33,137 nt of DNA from a virus: the IMG/VR virus record IMGVR_UViG_3300011261_000108, positions 1-33,137 of that record; one strand, given 5' to 3'. Within the stretch, counting starts at the first letter, position 1, and every line of letters starts with the position of its first letter. The position numbers and the translations under genes are program-made. This document shows, piece after piece, positions 15,806 through 28,522 of the stretch. The notes beneath the pieces are model-generated. The model worked only from the letters and a program-made list of their open reading frames with translations. It did not search any database and was not told where the DNA came from.

Positions 15806-16236
15806 TCTCCCTCCTGACTTATGTATTCCTTACTCGCTTCGTAATCTGATAGGGCTTTTCTAAATTTCTTATCCATTGGATTTAACCGGATTGTTTGACC
15901 TTCTCTGTCAAATACATGGACAAAAGTTTTAGCCACATCAACCACCTTATTAGCCTCAGCCAGCTTACGCTCTAATTCTTTAACACAACCTTTGTGATTT
16001 ATTTCATCAAGCTCAAAATCAGATATAACGTCTTTTAGGCCATCATTTTCTTCATTAGCCATAGCCAGCTTACGCTCTGTTGCTTCGAGTTCATCAAGCA
16101 CATAACCTAAAATTCTTGATGCTTCACTTTCTCCATGCATATCCAGATGCAGCTTGAAGGCTTTAGCTTCCTTTATCCGCATAAGTGAAATATCTAATTC
16201 AATCTTTGATTTCTCAGCTTCTTGTTTTGCGTTCAT
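15802..16236 (-). CDS. Coiled-coil hypothetical early protein
   Basis: The 144-residue protein is almost wholly helical, with heptad-like stretches at residues 1-30, 48-75 and 85-105 (LDELEATERKLAMANEENDG, then ELERKLAEANKVVDVAKTF). It resembles Ea22-like and other early phage coiled-coil proteins in style, but I cannot assign a family. Its start overlaps the end of the 49-residue gene upstream, and it ends in a four-base overlap with the next gene. Confidence 0.75.
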   Translation of the reverse strand: MNAKQEAEKSKIELDISLMRIKEAKAFKLHLDMHGESEASRILGYVLDELEATERKLAMANEENDGLKDVISDFELDEINHKGCVKELERKLAEANKVVDVAKTFVHVFDREGQTIRLNPMDKKFRKALSDYEASKEYISQEGE

Positions 16237-16363
16237 GAATCACCGCCTTCATTAATGACTGCTCATTAGAAAGCAGCCAGCGAATTGATTGATCGGTCAC
16301 TGATACTGTGCGGCCATCTGGCTTAACAAAGTAATGGTTGCCCCAATAGATCATGTATATCAT
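16214..16363 (-). CDS. Small hypothetical protein (49 residues)
   Basis: ATG 16363 is preceded by the shared leader GAGGGCTTAAAA, which supports a real gene. It encodes MIYMIYWGNHYFVKPDGRTV and then SVTDQSIRWLLSNEQSLMKA; the TVSVTDQSIRWLL part could be a small recognition helix. It overlaps the next gene by 23 bases. No function is recognised. Confidence 0.7.
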   Translation of the reverse strand: MIYMIYWGNHYFVKPDGRTVSVTDQSIRWLLSNEQSLMKAVIHERKTRS

Positions 16364-16375
16364 TTTTAAGCCCTC

Positions 16376-16654
16376 TTATTTGCAGATATAGCGGAATTTT
16401 CCGCATACGCCGTGAGTTGATCCGATTTCATCATTTAATTTTTTAATGTAATCGGTTGATGATTCTCTCACTTCTTCAAACTCATACCATTTGCCGCTGT
16501 GCTTAACTTCAATTTTACCGTCTTTGATGCGGTATCCTTTTTTGAAATAAACCTGAGTTGATGCCCTCCATGTGCCAAAAATACATTTGTCACGATAGGT
16601 TTCAATCATGAATTTTTTTGTTGCTGATTCAAATGTTACGCTGTGTATTGTCAT
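16376..16654 (-). CDS. Hypothetical early protein, first gene of unit A
   Basis: The start is ATG 16654, directly after the leader CGAGGGCTTAAAA; a longer frame to 16702 has no ribosome site and runs into the promoter. The 92 residues begin MTIHSVTFESATKKFMIETY, with FGTWRASTQVYFKKGYRIKD and a WYEFEEV strand. It looks like a small beta-rich domain. It is the first gene after operator A. No family is recognised. Confidence 0.75.
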   Translation of the reverse strand: MTIHSVTFESATKKFMIETYRDKCIFGTWRASTQVYFKKGYRIKDGKIEVKHSGKWYEFEEVRESSTDYIKKLNDEIGSTHGVCGKFRYICK

Positions 16655-16691
16655 TTTTAAGCCCTCGTTGTTTTTCGTTTCGATGTAAGTA

Positions 16692-18478: not shown

Positions 18479-18934
18479 TTAAAGCCCTCTATCTTTTAAA
18501 TATTCGTCTGGAGTCATAACAGGAACAACTTTGTGCTGAGATAGATCTGTTCCGCATTCTTCACATTCCTGAACCACTTTGCCGATATAGCAGATCTTTC
18601 CGGCCTTCATTGCTTTGTAGGCGTTCTCAGAAGTCATATGGCGGCCTTGCTTGTATCGCTCATGATTGCACTGGGTATCAATCAGGATTGTTCTCACTGG
18701 CCTTCCTGTTGTCTCATCACGGATTTTCATGCCTTCAATCAGTAAGCCCGATTCAATTAATTCTGTAACACGCGGCCTCACGGCGTTCATATCGTTATAG
18801 CCAAGCCCATCTTTGATCTGGCGCTCAGTTGATCTGCCGTTTTTCTCGATGTATTCATACACTTCAGCTTGGCGCCCAGAAAGATGATCTTTCAAGGCAA
18901 TATATGTATCAATACTGTTTTCACGGACACTCAT
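18479..18934 (-). CDS. Winged-helix DNA-binding protein with C-terminal Cys pair
   Basis: The 151-residue protein contains a winged helix at residues about 17-85: SGRQAEVYEYIEKNGRSTER, QIKDGLGYNDMNAVRPRVTE and LIESGLLIEGMKIRDETTGR, which is the helix-helix-recognition helix-wing order. A C-terminal part has C115? region VVQECEECGTDLSQH with a CEEC pair and one earlier Cys and His that could bind zinc. Phages carry such proteins near recombination genes. The starting ATG overlaps the stop of the upstream membrane protein gene by four bases. Confidence 0.75.
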   Translation of the reverse strand: MSVRENSIDTYIALKDHLSGRQAEVYEYIEKNGRSTERQIKDGLGYNDMNAVRPRVTELIESGLLIEGMKIRDETTGRPVRTILIDTQCNHERYKQGRHMTSENAYKAMKAGKICYIGKVVQECEECGTDLSQHKVVPVMTPDEYLKDRGL

Positions 18935-19143
18935 ACCAGCCCCCTCTTTTTATGGTTATCGGTATATTTCAACCTCTTAGTGCCAACTGGCTGAATATCA
19001 TCACGGAGATCAATAATCTCAAAATCTTCGTCACAAGCCGTATATAATAAAAATAATACAACCACCATAACTACAACAAAAATAATGCCGAGCACAGCGA
19101 GAATGCTGATCGCGGTTGGAAAATTACTAAAAAGATAATCCAT
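18931..19143 (-). CDS. Small single-span membrane protein
   Basis: A 70-residue protein with a strong membrane helix at residues about 10-36 (AISILAVLGIIFVVVMVVVL) and an acidic-then-basic cytoplasmic tail (CDEDFEIIDLRDD, KRLKYTDNHKKRG). The start follows the leader GAGGGTTTAAAAT. No function is known; small early membrane proteins often modify host processes. Confidence 0.75.
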   Translation of the reverse strand: MDYLFSNFPTAISILAVLGIIFVVVMVVVLFLLYTACDEDFEIIDLRDDIQPVGTKRLKYTDNHKKRGLV

Positions 19144-19159
19144 ATTTTAAACCCTCTTT

Positions 19160-19348
19160 TTATAATTTAATCGCGTAATCATAAGCGGCCTTATGAGTTT
19201 TGAATTTTCCGTGAGAAACGTGAGAGCCAACAACTTTAGATGATGGCAAGAATAACTCCCAGTTTCCGCGTGAACCTGTCATATACCCGATATATTCACC
19301 GTTTTTATAATAAAGAACAGATTTTTCGCTGTGTTTTTTAACCTTCAT
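19160..19348 (-). CDS. Small hypothetical protein, first gene of unit B
   Basis: A 62-residue protein, basic and beta-rich: MKVKKHSEKSVLYYKNGEYI, GYMTGSRGNWELFLPSSKVV and FKTHKAAYDYAIKL. The start follows the shared leader CGAGGGCTTAAAA and lies 39 bases from operator B. The pattern resembles small strand-strand-helix proteins found in early phage regions. Function unknown. Confidence 0.75.
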   Translation of the reverse strand: MKVKKHSEKSVLYYKNGEYIGYMTGSRGNWELFLPSSKVVGSHVSHGKFKTHKAAYDYAIKL

Positions 19349-19382
19349 TTTTAAGCCCTCGATTTATTGATTTGATGAGTTC

Positions 19383-21010: not shown

Positions 21011-22570
21011 TTAGATTGAAACGTGATCGACTTCACCAGCAACAATTAGTTTTGCAACTTTCTGAGCTGTTTGCTTTCCGATTCCGTTATTGATTAATGA
21101 TTGTTTAATTTCTTCAGTTAGATGAAGCTCATATTCTTTATTGCGCTGATTTGTTGCTGGAGTTTCAATAGGGTTGATTTCAGATAAATCAGAAACACCA
21201 TTAATCCCGCCGCCTTCAGATTCAGTGGCTGGCGTTTCTTTTTCAGCTTCAGCTTTCAGTCTTTCATTCTCGACTCTTAAAGCTTCAGCTTTTGCCGCTT
21301 CAGCATCTTTATATTCTTGAATGCGAGTTTTCGCCAGCAAAACAAAATCATCTTCAGCTTTATTCACAATCAATCTCAAATCTTTGAATAAGAAATCATA
21401 CTCAGCTGGAATTGAATTGAGATTTGTTTTGATAAGTTTTGCCTGTTTATCAATCTCAATCTTCAGCCTTGCAACTTCATCATTCGCCGCTGATTGTAAT
21501 GAAGCAACAGTTTTTTTGCCTTTAAGCGCACTATGAAAACTAGGATCAGTATTAAGATATGAGTCACCAAGCATTTTGTTTGTTGATTTCTCATACTCTA
21601 AAAACTCATCAAACGCATTATCTATAATTTGTTTTTTGATTTCAGCTTTTTTGGTTGTAACTGATTTATTCAAATCAAGGCGCTTTGCTCTCATTTGCTG
21701 CTTCAGGAAATCCAGTGTTTTGAATAGCTCATCAATATCAGCTGTTTGAGAAATCGCTTGCTCTTTCACGGCATCAAGTTTCTTTTCAGCCGCTTCACAG
21801 AATATCACTGTTTTCTCAGCATTGGCAAAATCTTCATCAGTTTTCAAATCGGTATTAATTGAAGCAATAAATGATTCAGCGCTTTCTTTGTAAACTGCAA
21901 GATTAGTATCTTTCACGCCGCCAGTGATTTGAATATTGACTGCTGGCAATTCCATAATCGCTTCAGCTTCAGGCTTTACAGCTTCAACTTTTGGCTTGTA
22001 TGCTGCCAAATCATCGCCAAACCTTTTCCAGCCATGCAACAATTCTTCAAATATTTCTTTGTTAGGGTAAACCCAAATATATTCCATTTTGTCAGGAGTG
22101 CCATCAGAAGTCACAAAAATTGCTTTATCTGCATTACTGATCATTAATTGTTGCTGAATCTGATAGTTATAGTGGGCTTCAATAACCCCAGCTTTCATAT
22201 TAGCAGCAAGCCTTTCATTCCACAGCTTATGCTCAAAAACAATATCTTCAAGCAATGTCAGCCCATCGAATGAAGCCGATAATGGAACGCCATCAATATA
22301 CTCAACACCAGTGACGGGATATAAATCTTCGCCAACTATCTTTTCAATATGTGGGCGAATAGCGGCTTCAGCTGCATGGCCTTTGTCGAATAATTCTTGA
22401 AGAAAATGATCGATCGCTTTTGTTTCGCCAGTTTTTTGCTGATGAATCAATTGATCGCGCGTCATATACTTTGATGCGCCTTTCATTGCCGGAGCTTCAG
22501 AAGCGTTATAGCTTGAAGCCCTATGCTTATGCCATTCAGTGGATCCCTGAACTAAATTTAAAGTTTTCAT
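21011..22570 (-). CDS. YqaJ-family exonuclease (lambda exo-like) with long C-terminal extension
   Basis: Residues 1-190 form the YqaJ nuclease: QGSTEWHKHRASSYNASEAP, GHAAEAAIRPHIE (E68), LSASFDGL (D102), VFEHKLW (E113, K115) and YNYQIQQQLMIS (Q137). These are the metal-binding and active-site positions of lambda exonuclease relatives, which resect double-stranded DNA 5'-3' for the Bet partner encoded next to it. The remaining 330 residues are coiled coil of a DUF1351-like type (residues about 225-440) plus a C-terminal helical domain KQSLINNGIGKQTAQKVAKL. The protein is thus about twice the usual nuclease length. The leader GAGGGCTTATAAA precedes ATG 22570. Confidence 0.88.
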   Translation of the reverse strand: MKTLNLVQGSTEWHKHRASSYNASEAPAMKGASKYMTRDQLIHQQKTGETKAIDHFLQELFDKGHAAEAAIRPHIEKIVGEDLYPVTGVEYIDGVPLSASFDGLTLLEDIVFEHKLWNERLAANMKAGVIEAHYNYQIQQQLMISNADKAIFVTSDGTPDKMEYIWVYPNKEIFEELLHGWKRFGDDLAAYKPKVEAVKPEAEAIMELPAVNIQITGGVKDTNLAVYKESAESFIASINTDLKTDEDFANAEKTVIFCEAAEKKLDAVKEQAISQTADIDELFKTLDFLKQQMRAKRLDLNKSVTTKKAEIKKQIIDNAFDEFLEYEKSTNKMLGDSYLNTDPSFHSALKGKKTVASLQSAANDEVARLKIEIDKQAKLIKTNLNSIPAEYDFLFKDLRLIVNKAEDDFVLLAKTRIQEYKDAEAAKAEALRVENERLKAEAEKETPATESEGGGINGVSDLSEINPIETPATNQRNKEYELHLTEEIKQSLINNGIGKQTAQKVAKLIVAGEVDHVSI

Positions 22571-22585
22571 TTTATAAGCCCTCTA

Positions 22586-23392
22586 TTATTTAATTTGATC
22601 TTTTTGTTCTACTGTCAAAGTATATTTTGTTTCAACCATATTCACAATGTCTTCTTTGGTTTTTTTGCCTTCCTTGATTAATGACTTCCATTTTATTAGA
22701 TTTTCACCAAATAAATCGGCTGGGTATACAGGTAAAACAACTTGCTCAACTTCTTTTGGTTCACTGTGAACCGTTCTTTCTGCATCGCCCATGTCAATCT
22801 CTTTGCCAGCCATTTCTTCAGCCGTAGGCGCTTGACCGATTTCAGGCCAACCCTTTCTGAGAGCTTGAGCTTCAGCACATTTTACAAGTTGACCTTTCGG
22901 GCGCTTTTTCCACATTGCATTTGGCGCGTTTGAATTACGCGAATCAGTTGCATAATTTTCAAGCCAATACTCTTTGGCCACAAACTCAACAATATGATTG
23001 CCGATCAATTTCTTCATGGAAACTTTGCACCACTCAGGATACGTGACTGACACAGAATTATTATTTTTATCAGTGAATGTTGCTGTAACATCAGCGCCAA
23101 ACTCAGGCTCAGAAGCGCCAGCCAAAGTGCCAGAGCGATCTGCTTGAATACGGTATAAACCGATCCCAGCCATCACAACATCACGGAAAACGTACTGATT
23201 TGTTTGAGGATCTTTCACGCTCATTGGAACGATATGAACCGGCTTCTGCATTGGATCTAATCCGGCCGCCTCACAATAAGAAAGCACCATTTCAACTGAT
23301 TCAGTTTTTGCGCCTGTATATAAACTATTTTGAAGTGTTGTGATCAATTTCTTTCTTTCAGCTGGATCGCTGATTTTTACAATATCATTCAT
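22586..23392 (-). CDS. bet: Single-strand annealing protein Bet (RecT/Redbeta superfamily)
   Basis: The 268-residue protein has the Bet signature: AAGLDPMQKPVHIVPMSVKD, FRDVVMAGIGLYRIQADRSG, LAGASEPEFG, PEWCKVSMKKLIGNHIVEFV and AMWKKRPKGQLVKCAEAQAL. It anneals complementary strands produced by the adjacent exonuclease. The C-terminus is a short charged helical region. The start follows the shared leader TGAGGGCTTAAAA; operator C lies 43 bases upstream, between this gene and the divergent Cro-like gene, so it may be repressed by that protein. Confidence 0.93.
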   Translation of the reverse strand: MNDIVKISDPAERKKLITTLQNSLYTGAKTESVEMVLSYCEAAGLDPMQKPVHIVPMSVKDPQTNQYVFRDVVMAGIGLYRIQADRSGTLAGASEPEFGADVTATFTDKNNNSVSVTYPEWCKVSMKKLIGNHIVEFVAKEYWLENYATDSRNSNAPNAMWKKRPKGQLVKCAEAQALRKGWPEIGQAPTAEEMAGKEIDMGDAERTVHSEPKEVEQVVLPVYPADLFGENLIKWKSLIKEGKKTKEDIVNMVETKYTLTVEQKDQIK

Positions 23393-23432
23393 TTTTAAGC
23401 CCTCATTTGATTTATTAAAGTAATACGTTTAT

Positions 23433-23477: not shown

Positions 23478-23690
23478 ATGGAAACAACCCCACTCAAAAA
23501 AACTGAGCTTCATCAAGCCATTGTTGACGCATTCGGCACGATTGCTCATGCGCGACGCGTTTTAGGCTTAGAGCATAAACAGACAATATATAACTGGATT
23601 CATAAGGATGAGATCCCAGCCCACAGACAGAAAAAGATCCGTGAATTGGGATTTGATCCAAAGACATTCAAACCAATAAATCAAAAATGA
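23478..23690 (+). CDS. Cro-like helix-turn-helix regulator
   Basis: The 70-residue protein holds a helix-turn-helix at about residues 19-45: FGTIAHARRVLGLEHKQTIY and NWIHKDEIPAHRQKKIRELG. The pattern A-x-x-LG-x-x-x-x-x-I-x-x-W-x-x-x-x-IPA is typical of Cro and YdaS-type phage repressors. It is the only plus-strand gene within the early minus-strand block and faces bet across operator C, so it is the best candidate to bind the six 17-bp sites. No partner CI-type gene is visible. AGGTG lies upstream of ATG 23478. The 3' end overlaps the convergent HNH gene. Confidence 0.85.
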   Translation: METTPLKKTELHQAIVDAFGTIAHARRVLGLEHKQTIYNWIHKDEIPAHRQKKIRELGFDPKTFKPINQK

Positions 23691-24696: not shown

Positions 24697-24885
24697 TCAG
24701 TATTTTTCATATTTCATAACTCCCTTACTAACTAAAAATGCAACGCTCACAGCCTGCTCAAGTTGCTCAATCAATTCTTTTGCATCTTCAACTGACACTC
24801 TGGCTTGTGAGTATTTGCGCCCGATAAGGATCGGCTCATCTGGCCTGTTGTCCTTTGGTTTATATTCTGCCGTGAATTTATCCAT
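24697..24885 (-). CDS. Hypothetical early protein
   Basis: ATG 24885, eight bases after GAGG, gives 62 residues: MDKFTAEYKPKDNRPDEPIL, IGRKYSQARVSVEDAKELIE and QLEQAVSVAFLVSKG. The start lies inside the last codons of the upstream gene (eight-base overlap), so the two are coupled. It looks like a short strand followed by a helix. Function unknown. Confidence 0.65.
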   Translation of the reverse strand: MDKFTAEYKPKDNRPDEPILIGRKYSQARVSVEDAKELIEQLEQAVSVAFLVSKGVMKYEKY

Positions 24886-25321
24886 TGCCATAGCCTCGCT
24901 TGCGCTCAACCTTGAAAACTTCATCGATGTGATGATTCCGGCCATTTGTCCAGTCCTCAACATCGCCATTCACAACAGCGAAGGCATGATCATGAGTAAT
25001 ACAAATGAAATACCCGCGCTTCAATCTTTTGCCGATTGTTTTTGGCGTGTATTTGCTGCCGTTTTTCTGGCGAAGCCTTTTCGTTTTCAAAGTTGTATTT
25101 TTACGGTTCTCAACTTTGGTGAAGTTGAATGCTGGAAATAATTGAAAGCCCCGTTCAAGCCTGAAGCCCTTTCCGTTTTTACGGCCAGCAAACTTCATTT
25201 TCTCATGCGCTTCTTTGTAAGTTGAGCGGCATACAATAGACATTGCGATCACAGTGCAATCATTTGTTTCTTTCTGTGATTTGCGGTATCTGCTTTTTGA
25301 TTGTTTCAGGTATCGTTTCAT
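24878..25321 (-). CDS. Papain-like cysteine peptidase candidate
   Basis: The 147-residue basic protein has NDCTVIAMSIVCRSTYKEAH around C22, with the N/D-C-x-x-x-A-x-x-I pattern at the start of a helix typical of papain-like folds, a GRKNGKGF loop, and further on GYFICITHDHAFAVVNGDVE with H112 and D120 or D123 in strand-turn-strand order. This Cys-His-Asp set recurs in small phage proteins of unknown role. Activity is inferred. It is the first gene after operator D, with the leader TGAGGGCTTAAA before ATG 25321. Confidence 0.7.
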   Translation of the reverse strand: MKRYLKQSKSRYRKSQKETNDCTVIAMSIVCRSTYKEAHEKMKFAGRKNGKGFRLERGFQLFPAFNFTKVENRKNTTLKTKRLRQKNGSKYTPKTIGKRLKRGYFICITHDHAFAVVNGDVEDWTNGRNHHIDEVFKVERKRGYGNG

Positions 25322-25354
25322 TTTAAGCCCTCAATTTTCGTTGTTGTTGAGTTC

Positions 25355-25629: not shown

Positions 25630-25914
25630 TTACAAATAATATGATAAGTGATCATGCTCAGAAGGATCTAAGCCAAGCTGATTGAATACTTCAACAGATT
25701 CTTCTGTGAATTGGTATTGGCCAGCAAATTGTCCATCTTCAACAGCAATCAAGCCTTTTTTCGCTAGTGAGCCAACAATTCCAGCAAAACTTTTCCCGTT
25801 GATTCCAGCCGCGTCATGATTGACTTCATCAGTGAAACCAAAATCACCGCCGTTGTTATAAGAATTACTAACTAATAATTTAAAAACCGCTGCTTCTTTT
25901 TCTGTGATATTCAT
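25630..25914 (-). CDS. Winged-helix-like early protein
   Basis: The 94-residue protein starts MNITEKEAAVFKLLVSNSYN and has KSFAGIVGSLAKKGLIAVED followed by GQFAGQYQFTEESVEVFNQL, the helix-recognition helix-wing order of MarR-like domains. The start follows the leader TGAGGGTTTAAAA. DNA binding is likely by pattern, but the target is unknown. Confidence 0.75.
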   Translation of the reverse strand: MNITEKEAAVFKLLVSNSYNNGGDFGFTDEVNHDAAGINGKSFAGIVGSLAKKGLIAVEDGQFAGQYQFTEESVEVFNQLGLDPSEHDHLSYYL

Positions 25915-25928
25915 TTTTAAACCCTCAA

Positions 25929-26171: not shown

Positions 26172-26184
26172 TTTATTTCCCTCG

Positions 26185-26254
26185 ATTTCCTTAGTTGTTG
26201 AAGTAAGTATATACCTCCTGAGTATAATATCAAGGATTATTTTGATTTATTTTT
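26185..26254 (-). repeat. Duplicated promoter cassette, copy 1 (operator E)
   Basis: This 70-bp stretch matches 26525-26594 with three mismatches. It includes -35 TTGATA (26233-26228), -10 TATACT (26211-26206), a 16-base spacer and the 17-bp site TATACCTCCTGAGTATA (26210-26226). It drives the minus-strand gene starting at 26171. Confidence 0.8.
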
Positions 26255-26511
26255 TAAGCCATGCTATCTATAAAAAAATCAGACATATAGAGTGAGTTAT
26301 ATTCATAGCATGAAAAATCAATGCTTTTTAAGCCCCTAGCATCAAATTCTTCAGCGCATAAATCAAATCGCTGTCTAGCATTATAAAAATTATCGCTATA
26401 ACTAGCAGCCTCATATGACGAATAATTCAAGTATATATTTTTGCATGTTGTTATAGATTTATTAATCCATTTCCATAATTGATCATCTGTCATATTCTTA
26501 ACATCTTTCAT
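26254..26511 (-). CDS. Hypothetical early protein, first gene of unit F
   Basis: The 85-residue protein is rich in Tyr, Ser and Asp: MKDVKNMTDDQLWKWINKSI, TTCKNIYLNYSSYEAASYSD and a C-terminal part ending SLYMSDFFIDSMA. It follows the leader TGAGGGCTTAAAAA and starts 39 bases from operator F. It stands alone between two copies of the same promoter cassette, which suggests an insertion or duplication event. Function unknown. Confidence 0.75.
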   Translation of the reverse strand: MKDVKNMTDDQLWKWINKSITTCKNIYLNYSSYEAASYSDNFYNARQRFDLCAEEFDARGLKSIDFSCYEYNSLYMSDFFIDSMA

Positions 26512-26524
26512 TTTTTAAGCCCTC

Positions 26525-26594
26525 ATTTCCTTAGTTGTTGAAGTAAGTATATACCTACTGAGTATAATATCAAGGATTATTTCAATTTATTTTT
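26525..26594 (-). repeat. Duplicated promoter cassette, copy 2 (operator F)
   Basis: This copy has -35 TTGATA (26573-26568), -10 TATACT (26551-26546), a 16-base spacer and the 17-bp site TATACCTACTGAGTATA (26550-26566). It is the outermost early promoter, driving the gene that starts at 26511. Confidence 0.8.
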
Positions 26595-26623
26595 GATTTA
26601 TTTTCATTCTATATAAGACGGGC

Positions 26624-26656
26624 AAAAAAAAGCCGCCCTCTAGGAGAAAGGCGGCT
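26624..26656 (-). terminator. Intrinsic terminator of the OOP-like RNA
   Basis: On the minus strand AGCCGCC and GGCGGCT (26656-26650 and 26637-26631) form a 7-bp GC-rich stem, extended by CTC/GAG with a three-base bulge, followed by a run of eight T. The plus-strand side has no T run, so it ends transcripts moving leftwards. The only DNA upstream of it on this strand without a gene is the 26.66-26.83 kb stretch, which points to a short RNA. Confidence 0.85.
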
Positions 26657-26754
26657 AATAGCCATTAATTTGAAAAGGGTAATGGTGTAAAACCTTATTC
26701 TTGCGCTTGCATTCGAGGGCTTAGTTCGATTAACATGCAAGCATCAACACAAGA
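26624..26754 (-). ncRNA. OOP-like small antisense RNA candidate
   Basis: A transcript of about 130 nt is predicted from the promoter at 26761-26789 to the terminator. It lies just upstream of the O-like gene and on the opposite strand, the same place as lambda OOP RNA. It contains a hairpin: GCTTGCAT and ATGCAAGC (26742-26735 and 26712-26705), a five-base bulge, an inner TCGA/TCGA stem and the loop ACTAAGCCC. The loop and adjoining bases give TAAGCCCTCG, complementary to the CGAGGGCTTA leader of many early genes. No open frame of note is present. Confidence 0.6.
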
Positions 26755-26760
26755 AGTGCA

Positions 26761-26789
26761 ATCATGAGGCTTACATGATTGGCTGTCAA
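26761..26789 (-). promoter_or_regulatory. Promoter of the OOP-like RNA
   Basis: On the minus strand a perfect -35, TTGACA (26789-26784), and CATGAT (26766-26761; four of six matches to TATAAT) are separated by exactly 17 bases. Its direction is away from the O-like gene. Confidence 0.55.
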
Positions 26790-26835: not shown

Positions 26836-27591
26836 ATGATCGATCAAGGCTGGATTACCATCCACAGAAAAATAAAAGATTCGCCATTCTACAAGGATTC
26901 TGAAGCGATCCATTTGTGGATTCATATCCTATTATCTGCAAATCACAAAAATAATAAGTTTCTAATCGGGAATAAGATGATTGATATTCCGAGAGGCTGT
27001 ATTTTAACTGGTAGAAAATCACTATCAGCTCAAACTGGCATCAATGAAAGCAAAATTCAAAGGCTCTTAAAACTGTTTGAAAGTGAACAGCAAATTGAAC
27101 AACAAACATTCTCAAAATATCGTTTGATTTCAATAGTTAATTACGATTCATATCAGAAGGATGAACAGCAAAAGAACAGCAAAAGAACAGCAAGTGAACA
27201 GCAAGTGAACACAAACAACAATGTAAACAATGAAAACAATGTAAACAAACAACAAAAGAAAAAAGCCGTTGTTTTTGAGCTGCCAAATAACATTGATGAA
27301 ATCACATGGAAATCATTTCTTGAGCATAGACAAAAATTAAAAGCTCCAATGACAGATCACGCTAAAAATCTAATGATGAAAAAATTAGAGAAATTAAATG
27401 GCAATCCAAATCACATATTAAACCAATCAATTGAAAATGGCTGGAAAGGCGTTTTTGAATTAAAGCAGGAGAATAACAATGGAAACAATCAACCAGACAA
27501 CAGAAGCCGCGCTAAAAAACATCAAGACAAGCTCAGAGAGATCGCAGAGCGAGACATCAAACAACATGGGAATCCCGATCTCATGGGTTAG
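26836..27591 (+). CDS. Replication initiator, lambda O-like
   Basis: ATG 26836 is chosen over an earlier start because AAAGGAG lies five bases before it. The 251-residue protein has an N-terminal winged-helix domain (MIDQGWITIHRKIKDSPFYK, AIHLWIHILLSANHK, IPRGCILTGRKSLSAQTGIN, ESKIQRLLKLFES) as in phage replisome organisers. The middle (about 110-150) is rich in Gln and Asn because it is encoded by tandem repeats that look like iterons. The C-terminal part is basic and should contact the P-like loader encoded next. It is probably the origin-binding protein with the origin inside its own gene. Confidence 0.85.
   Translation: MIDQGWITIHRKIKDSPFYKDSEAIHLWIHILLSANHKNNKFLIGNKMIDIPRGCILTGRKSLSAQTGINESKIQRLLKLFESEQQIEQQTFSKYRLISIVNYDSYQKDEQQKNSKRTASEQQVNTNNNVNNENNVNKQQKKKAVVFELPNNIDEITWKSFLEHRQKLKAPMTDHAKNLMMKKLEKLNGNPNHILNQSIENGWKGVFELKQENNNGNNQPDNRSRAKKHQDKLREIAERDIKQHGNPDLMG
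27085..27107 (+). repeat. Two outlying iteron-like copies
   Basis: GAACAGCAAAT (27085) and GAACAACAAAC (27097) are 12 bases apart. They resemble the main 11-bp array that begins 66 bases farther on. Confidence 0.55.
27163..27217 (+). repeat. 11-bp iteron array inside the O-like gene (putative origin)
   Basis: Five direct repeats start at 27163, 27174, 27185, 27196 and 27207: GAACAGCAAAA twice, GAACAGCAAGT twice and GAACACAAACA. The 11-base period places each copy on nearly the same face of the helix. Lambdoid phages carry initiator-binding iterons at this place in O, followed by an AT-rich unwinding region. Confidence 0.75.
27217..27252 (+). repeat. 9-bp AT-rich tandem repeats next to the iterons
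   Basis: AACAATGTA, AACAATGAA, AACAATGTA and AACAAACAA follow one another without gaps. They adjoin the 11-bp array, and AT-rich sequence continues to about 27265, as expected of a DNA unwinding element. Confidence 0.7.
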
Positions 27592-27943
27592 CGCTCTTTT
27601 TGCAAAGTTTCAGGCGCGATATGGACATAAGCACACTTCAGCAATGGAGGGAATTGAAGAAGTGGCAGTTGTAGAGTGGAGTCAGGGCTTATCAGGGCTT
27701 ACAGGAGAGCAGATCAAGAGTGGCCTTGATAGTTTGTCAGATGATTGGCCGCCCAGCTTACCGGCCTTCAGAGCGCTTTGTGAAGGCAAAAAGGCTGATG
27801 AATTTGGGATCGGGTATGTTCCTGAATGCTATCGTGAAACAAAACGTGAAAGATTGCTTGAATCTGATGAAAACAAGGCAGCTCACAAAGCGGCCTATGA
27901 ATCAGGGATGAGCGGATTGAAAGATATTTTAAATAAAAAATGA
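27479..27943 (+). CDS. Replication protein P-like helicase loader
   Basis: The 154-residue protein has the core of lambda P-family proteins: ISWVSALFAKFQARYGHKHT, then VVEWSQGLSGLTGEQIKSGL and DDWPPSLPAFRALCEG, the W-x-x-x-L-x-x-L-x-x-x-Q-x-x-x-GL and WPPSLP-x-FR-x-LC motifs. P recruits the host DnaB helicase to the O-bound origin. At 154 residues it is shorter than lambda P (233). ATG 27479, after AGGAG, overlaps the O-like gene by 113 bases; ATG 27566 is a less supported alternative. Confidence 0.85.
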   Translation: METINQTTEAALKNIKTSSERSQSETSNNMGIPISWVSALFAKFQARYGHKHTSAMEGIEEVAVVEWSQGLSGLTGEQIKSGLDSLSDDWPPSLPAFRALCEGKKADEFGIGYVPECYRETKRERLLESDENKAAHKAAYESGMSGLKDILNKK

Positions 27944-27952
27944 GGGCTTAAA

Positions 27953-28129
27953 ATGAAATTAATAAAAGAATCAAAATATACAATTGAATTAACGGCAATC
28001 GAGGCGGATGATTTTGTTGAGCAAGTTAATATCCTGCAAGATCGGACAGGCAGAAACGATGATTATGATCTATTGATACATATCAGGGATGAGTTAATGG
28101 CAAAAAATAAAATTAAATCCTTTAATTGA
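27953..28129 (+). CDS. Small hypothetical protein (58 residues)
   Basis: ATG 27953 is preceded by the shared leader TGAGGGCTTAAA, which here also holds the stop codon of the P-like gene. It encodes MKLIKESKYTIELTAIEADD, FVEQVNILQDRTGRNDDYDL and a basic end. The leader, codon use and position in a tight plus-strand operon support it. Function unknown. Confidence 0.7.
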   Translation: MKLIKESKYTIELTAIEADDFVEQVNILQDRTGRNDDYDLLIHIRDELMAKNKIKSFN

Positions 28130-28140
28130 TGGGACTTAAA

Positions 28141-28326
28141 ATGGAAAAGAAATATAAATTCAGTACAGAAAGCGGATTTTTTGATCCGTATAAATTGCCG
28201 CCGATCATGGTTATCACTAGCGGAAATATTCACTGGATATTGAATCAGGCAACAAATAAAAAGCACAGAAAATATCTGGCCGCTCAAATAATACTTGGCC
28301 AGCCGTTCAATACAAAGAGGGCTTAA
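28141..28326 (+). CDS. Small hypothetical protein (61 residues)
   Basis: ATG 28141 follows GATGGGACTTAAA, a variant of the shared leader. The protein reads MEKKYKFSTESGFFDPYKLP, PIMVITSGNIHWILNQATNK and a basic end. It lies between two other small genes of the replication operon. Function unknown. Confidence 0.65.
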   Translation: MEKKYKFSTESGFFDPYKLPPIMVITSGNIHWILNQATNKKHRKYLAAQIILGQPFNTKRA

Positions 28327-28327
28327 A

Positions 28328-28522
28328 ATGAAATTAATCGAAACGCATAAAAACTGCACAAAATGTGGTGAACCGGATCTGATAATCAATTATCACTGGC
28401 GCAAAAAGGGCGTATCTCGCCATGACGTTTGCGCGAGCTGTAGAAACACAAAGAGAGGCCGCGACAGAGCCGCTGAGAAAGATCAGCTGATTAGCCAGTG
28501 GTCAAGCATGGCTTGGCGTTAA
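28328..28522 (+). CDS. Small four-cysteine zinc-finger-like protein
   Basis: ATG 28328 follows the leader GAGGGCTTAAA, whose last bases include the upstream stop. The 64-residue protein has C10-x2-C13 (NCTKCGEP) and C35-x2-C38 (DVCASCRN), which should bind one zinc, and a basic helix NTKRGRDRAAEKDQLISQW. Similar small C4 proteins are frequent in phage nin-like regions. It ends four bases into a convergent small gene. Confidence 0.7.
   Translation: MKLIETHKNCTKCGEPDLIINYHWRKKGVSRHDVCASCRNTKRGRDRAAEKDQLISQWSSMAWR

Follow-up and report, generated by a model that had tools for sequence, protein, structure and literature searches.

We report that a 33,137-nt virus record from IMG/VR (IMGVR_UViG_3300011261_000108), analysed over its whole length and referred to here as the window, has on its minus strand a predicted gene for a small RNA with a hairpin loop complementary to a leader that is repeated in front of at least nine early genes. 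The DNA letters themselves show how the unit is built, that the complementarity is exact, and that loop and leader have changed in parallel in related phages. The match between loop and leader across relatives points to a putative phage-made master switch for early protein synthesis, and we consider it probable that a trans-acting sRNA blocks ribosome binding on the early mRNAs, where transcription, pairing and repression are inferred.

A minus-strand unit of promoter, hairpin and T8 terminator without a gene had been proposed in a preliminary description, and this is what we find: the elements follow each other in that order (26789-26761, 26705-26742 and 26656-26624) and there is no ORF. The putative promoter consists of the -35 hexamer TTGACA (26784-26789, minus strand) and the -10 hexamer CATGAT (26761-26766, minus strand) separated by 17 nt, both identified as consensus matches and together agreeing with the consensus at 10 of 12 positions. 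Because promoter-like sites in the region are no commoner than in shuffled sequences (22 vs 20, i.e. not above chance) this predicted promoter is only plausible. An 8-bp inverted repeat, CAATCATG-7 nt-CATGATTG (26759-26781), spans the -10 hexamer and is a possible operator; inverted repeats are present at the RNA promoter in three of the four units examined, and in the relatives G001 and G007 (see below) they likewise overlap or adjoin the -10, which suggests that the putative sRNA promoter is regulated. A gene at 23478-23690 on the plus strand, opposite to the early operon, encodes an HTH protein weakly similar to P22 Cro, a candidate regulator that might act on this repeat.

The RNA is predicted to cover 26624-26755 (minus strand; approximately 130 nt), its ends being inferred from promoter and terminator in the absence of transcript data. 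Of 200 shuffled sequences, only one folded as well as the whole RNA (z -3.7). Folding places a hairpin at 26705-26742 (plus coordinates; minus strand) with the layout GCTTGCAT-gttaa-TCGA-(ACTAAGCCC)-TCGA-ATGCAAGC, where ACTAAGCCC is the 9-nt loop (26717-26725). This hairpin is present in the minimum-energy fold of the entire RNA; a version cut inside the outer stem gave no significant fold. The anti-leader TAAGCCCTC, located by motif search at 26715-26723 (minus strand), is the exact complement of the leader GAGGGCTTA. The 9-base complement earlier ascribed to the loop plus the next bases is consequently real, with the correction that seven of the nine bases lie in the loop itself and that TC belongs to the inner stem. 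At the end of the predicted RNA is an intrinsic terminator (26624-26656, minus strand; hairpin part 26656-26631, T8 at 26631-26624), and our terminator scan gave no second strong one anywhere in the 33-kb record. The unit thereby has what is expected of a trans-acting sRNA gene, i.e. an own promoter (here a consensus match only), an intrinsic terminator and no ORF.

The leader GAGGGCTTA occurs ten times in the window, where 0.18 copies are expected, and nine of these sit 2-4 nt ahead of an ATG, seven on the minus and two on the plus strand. Specifically, on the minus strand it precedes the recT-like gene (22586-23392; leader at 23396-23404), the recE-like gene (21011-22570; 22575-22583) and the ORFs 26254-26511 (26516-26524), 24878-25321 (25324-25332), 19160-19348 (19352-19360), 16376-16654 (16658-16666) and 16214-16363 (16367-16375), and on the plus strand the ORFs 27953-28129 (27942-27950) and 28328-28522 (28317-28325). 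The claim that at least nine early genes on both strands have this leader is borne out, recT and recE included, with the caveat that one of the ORFs (16214-16363) has only 49 codons. Moreover, the minus-strand ORFs 25630-25914 and 18931-19143 are preceded by the variant GAGGGTTTA (at 25918-25926 and 19148-19156, respectively); the first is a C to T change that keeps a G-U pair with the loop G, and the second is also G-U compatible. All nine leaders are located between 16 and 28.5 kb, in the non-structural part and outside the identified head, tail and lysis genes. The tenth copy, the sole one that is not a leader, is antisense; its complement is made up of the hairpin loop and two bases of the stem.

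Repeated sites before genes are typical of regulator binding, and with a P22-Cro-like HTH protein encoded in the early region the 9-mer might be a site for a phage protein, either a RegA-like translational repressor or a DNA-binding protein, with the intergenic copy as its operator. We give this explanation very little credence. A protein site fails on the sequence of the RNA, which is complementary to the leader, since no RNA-binding protein could recognise the two alike; a DNA site has no need for placement in a hairpin directly before a terminator; and against either form it counts that on the mRNA strand the motif coincides with the Shine-Dalgarno sequence in every case.

The small RNA interpretation was followed in related phages. 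The comparison of loop and leader asked for beforehand came out positive, since the RNAs of two relatives match their own, different leaders. In G001 (IMGVR_UViG_3300032257_000068; 74-75% for terminase and 65% for RecT vs the window) the leader is GGGGTTWA, which differs from that of the window and is carried by the orthologous recT and recE genes in the form AAGGGGTT, then A/T-rich sequence, then ATG. Its RNA unit has TTGACA-17-AAAATT, a hairpin with the 9-nt loop ATTAACCCC (fold z -4.8) and a strong terminator, and the loop is the complement of GGGGTTAAT, the leader of G001 itself; compared with the window, a G to C change in the loop is paralleled by a C to G change in the leader. In G007 (IMGVR_UViG_3300030385_001492; terminase 62%) the leader GGGAAAAGC precedes eight ORFs, with more starts having the close variants GGGGAAAGC or GGGGAAAGGC, and its ninth and last copy is antisense, inside a terminator-ended RNA with the promoter-like sequence TTGTTA-17-TATTAT and a strong terminator. 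The G007 anti-leader is in an open loop closed by AGCTC/GAGCT that does not represent a significant hairpin. Complementarity that co-varies with the targets, as a trans-acting sRNA should have, is thus seen in the window, G001 and G007.

These data also bear on the simpler alternative raised in the preliminary description, namely that the plus-strand GAGGGCTTA is what remains of the leader of a lost gene and that promoter and terminator are unrelated to it. The plus strand does hold the 9-mer in sense orientation, and an antisense RNA in a second group of prophages (see below) has a leader copy with a broken start codon, so a relic origin is possible in general. It is not favoured in the window family because there is no start codon at leader distance in the window, G001 or G007 and the flanks are unlike those of leaders. 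Moreover, a relic explains neither why the copy tracks the current leader code in three phages nor why it is positioned just upstream of one of only one to two strong terminators, and we regard it as a very improbable account of the unit.

Support for loop/leader matching from other relatives is less extensive. G009, with the leader AAAGGCAA and the RNA stretch TTATTTGCCTTTC, gives moderate sequence support, its hairpin fold not being significant, and G002, where the leader is ACTGGAG and CTCCAGT adjoins a terminator at a gene end, appears to give weak support; the predicted units that we class as strong are three only, those of the window, G001 and G007. No such unit was seen in the relatives G004, G005, G006 and G010, or in the cultured relatives GJ44, HS1, H105/1 and Jersey. 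The G005 record (L425) is partial: an AAGAGGG leader precedes four ORFs (4/4 copies; 880, 1500, 4198 and 5313) and no antisense copy of AAGAGGG was seen in it, and the RNA may lie in the missing part.

The probability that a leader copy lies by chance in the 130 nt before a strong terminator is 0.0004 for the window, 0.0015 for both G001 and G007, 0.0067 for G009 and 0.0105 for G002; these values are approximations, and the good relatives examined numbered about ten. We also scanned the terminator-associated loops of 24 records blind. Of 1785 loops, 10 matched at least five leaders, all of them in the window, G007, G009 and G001, compared with 0/1785 reversed and 4/5355 shuffled loops; four of the ten represent an alternative G001 hairpin beside the anti-leader, not the anti-leader itself. 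Folding of loop-leader duplexes, also proposed earlier, gave, counted at -13 kcal/mol, 15 own-gene partners for the window loop vs 2-6 among the genes of the other phages, and 19 for the G007 loop vs 1-2. Shuffled loops reached the observed target count in 18 of 200 cases for G001 and in 13 of 200 for G002. The exact leader gave mostly single chance matches when searched for in viral contigs, a leader scan of genome_contigs gave mainly chance matches with only Serratia quinivorans having two copies close together, a RecT search of genome_contigs found no relative, and a stem-anchored search found no close relatives of the window hairpin. We discounted the loops of L628/L630 and L640-L649 (CAGGAGG and CAGGAGC), which belong to other phages and match Shine-Dalgarno sequences in general.

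On the basis of these data we propose that a stand-alone small-RNA gene produces an RNA whose hairpin loop would present the anti-leader, and that this would pair in trans with the extended Shine-Dalgarno leader of at least nine early mRNAs, including those of recT and recE, or of 11 or more if G-U pairs are allowed. Pairing would begin at the exposed loop and extend into the Shine-Dalgarno sequence just 5' of the start codon, keeping the 30S ribosome off, such that one RNA may lower the translation of many early genes together, presumably when these must be shut off. The earlier suggestion that such an RNA could keep ribosomes from many early mRNAs simultaneously is supported by the comparative test, with nothing experimental behind it; synthesis of the RNA, its pairing in the cell, repression as the outcome and the timing are all inferred. 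Some sRNAs are known to activate by pairing with the 5' leader, and the RNA might instead stabilise or activate the early mRNAs, to which we assign the least weight of the alternatives considered, as the predicted pairing covers the Shine-Dalgarno sequence itself and activation there would be unusual.

The minus strand of the window carries early genes of unknown function, recT, recE and an SSB gene; neither an integrase nor a CI repressor was found among the window proteins scanned. The G001 unit has a position equivalent to that in the window, on the same strand as the early operon and upstream of it, and with both units just upstream of the recT operon they could be attenuated early leaders, where promoter and terminator start the operon, antitermination gives read-through and the anti-leader acts mainly in cis or is there by chance. 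Each first early gene has, however, its own promoter-like sequence past the terminator, and the opposite-strand leaders at 27942 and 28317 are not downstream of the unit. As the whole explanation an attenuator is therefore hard to credit, and such a role in addition to action in trans is not excluded.

The second group comprises prophages from isolates that have a RecT relative in common (L139-L170), with one leader cluster also in Serratia quinivorans. These have repeated leaders such as AAGGACTGACCAATG or AGGTAACGACCAATG, and in many of them two to four tandem hairpins, with the anti-leader loops TTGGTC or TTCTTGGTCGTT, precede a terminator upstream of recT and in the opposite orientation. 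Stem pairs are kept in 97.6% of cells, and covariation in the stems is only slightly above that in shuffles (34/500). Since the start codon, in one example broken, can be part of the antisense leader copy, it is plausible from the sequences that the antisense RNAs of this group arose from a lost leader. In the Serratia quinivorans prophage (L496:5803-5830) a hairpin, CTGGTTCTGACCAAACCAG, that lies immediately before a leader shows the motif of that leader class in sense, possibly as a kissing partner or decoy.

Among known regulators, T4 RegA acts at the start sites of many phage early mRNAs and lowers their translation; the predicted RNA would similarly be one regulator for many early mRNAs, but RegA is a protein. 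In Staphylococcus aureus RNAIII and the Neisseria sibling sRNAs, C-rich anti-Shine-Dalgarno loops pair with the ribosome-binding sites of several mRNAs. These RNAs use the Shine-Dalgarno sequences of cellular genes, whereas the predicted target in the window is an extended leader specific to the phage, and this leader and the loop change in concert. If our proposal is true, a phage can shut many early genes post-transcriptionally by means of one RNA and a common leader, and the loop/leader pairs represent a natural set of orthogonal translational switches.

The OOP RNA of lambdoid phages is antisense to cII (PMC12197685), and the unit was originally likened to it. An O-like/DnaD-like replication gene (26836-27591, plus strand; Shine-Dalgarno AAAGGAG, without the leader motif) lies downstream of the unit on the other strand, together with a P-like loader (27479-27943, plus strand). 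Position and direction do agree with OOP, i.e. a short terminator-ended RNA that adjoins the O-like gene, is upstream of it and points away from it. The window RNA is, however, antisense to intergenic DNA and not to a cII-like or other gene (no plus-strand ORF of at least 50 codons under 26624-26755), and the G001 counterpart does not adjoin O. The likeness is thus positional only and membership in the OOP class was rejected. For the c4 antisense RNA of P1 and P7, complementary bases that are thought to be in loops bind around the ribosome-binding site and block translation; it underlies heteroimmunity and has one described target, ant (PMC12197685). Exposed bases complementary to the ribosome-binding region of phage mRNA are a likeness to c4, but the leaders that the window loop matches number nine or more and are found on both strands, and the window has no Rfam match at the gathering threshold.

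The closest known leader class is the start-associated sequence (SAS) of the cluster K mycobacteriophages (GGGATAGGAGCCC), a conserved extended Shine-Dalgarno leader before 13-19 non-structural genes (PMC3203893, PMC11373665), the role of which has been recorded as unknown since 2011 and of which a single antisense copy was reported in four K1 phages (PMC3203893). We find that this copy is in the apical loop of a long strong hairpin in Anaya, Adephagia, CrimD and Angelica, and also in four further relatives. In Adephagia genes 92 and 93 flank the hairpin, and late transcription reportedly begins there (PMC11373665). In Cain and Amgine the loop of the homologous hairpin is changed (TTCTCCCTTCC and CTTCCCTTCC) while the SAS leader is constant, and loop and leader accordingly do not track each other in all relatives. 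An antisense SAS copy was looked for and not found in TM4, Pixie and the Microbacterium phage AnnaSerena, of which the last has SAS-like leaders.

Some further observations concern the same phages. The K1-homologous hairpin in Cain, Krueger and Amgine (L710, L709 and L707) has another C/T-rich loop (CTCCCTTCC or CTTCCCTTCC) that is reminiscent of the 3' tail of 16S rRNA. Pixie (K3) is without the K1-type hairpin and has at 58,825 (minus strand; L698:30826) a very stable 15-bp hairpin with the loop ACCTATCC, 7 nt of which are complementary to SAS; its other strand is in sense orientation. In the window, near-identical promoter-bearing repeats (26182-26250 and 26527-26595; TTGATA-16-TATACT, then TACTTCAACAACTAAGGAAAT) precede two early genes and recall the ESAS of cluster K phages, which likewise bear promoters and lie upstream of SAS.

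Tentatively, and as a possibility for which the case is not yet made, several unrelated phage groups might share a private translational code, in which an extended Shine-Dalgarno leader of the early genes serves as a password that is read by one small RNA or late leader hairpin and the pair evolves as a unit, silencing the phage's own early genes and not those of its relatives. Such a code would explain the cluster K1 SAS, whose antisense hairpin sits at the reported late transcription start, and if true it would give a testable answer to why the cluster K mycobacteriophages, among others, keep the unusually conserved SAS; the extension to cluster K1 is a lead and not a result. Hosts and sequences differ between the SAS phages and the window, and what the two share is an extended, non-generic Shine-Dalgarno leader before many non-structural genes and, in the K1 phages, a single antisense copy of it in a hairpin loop.
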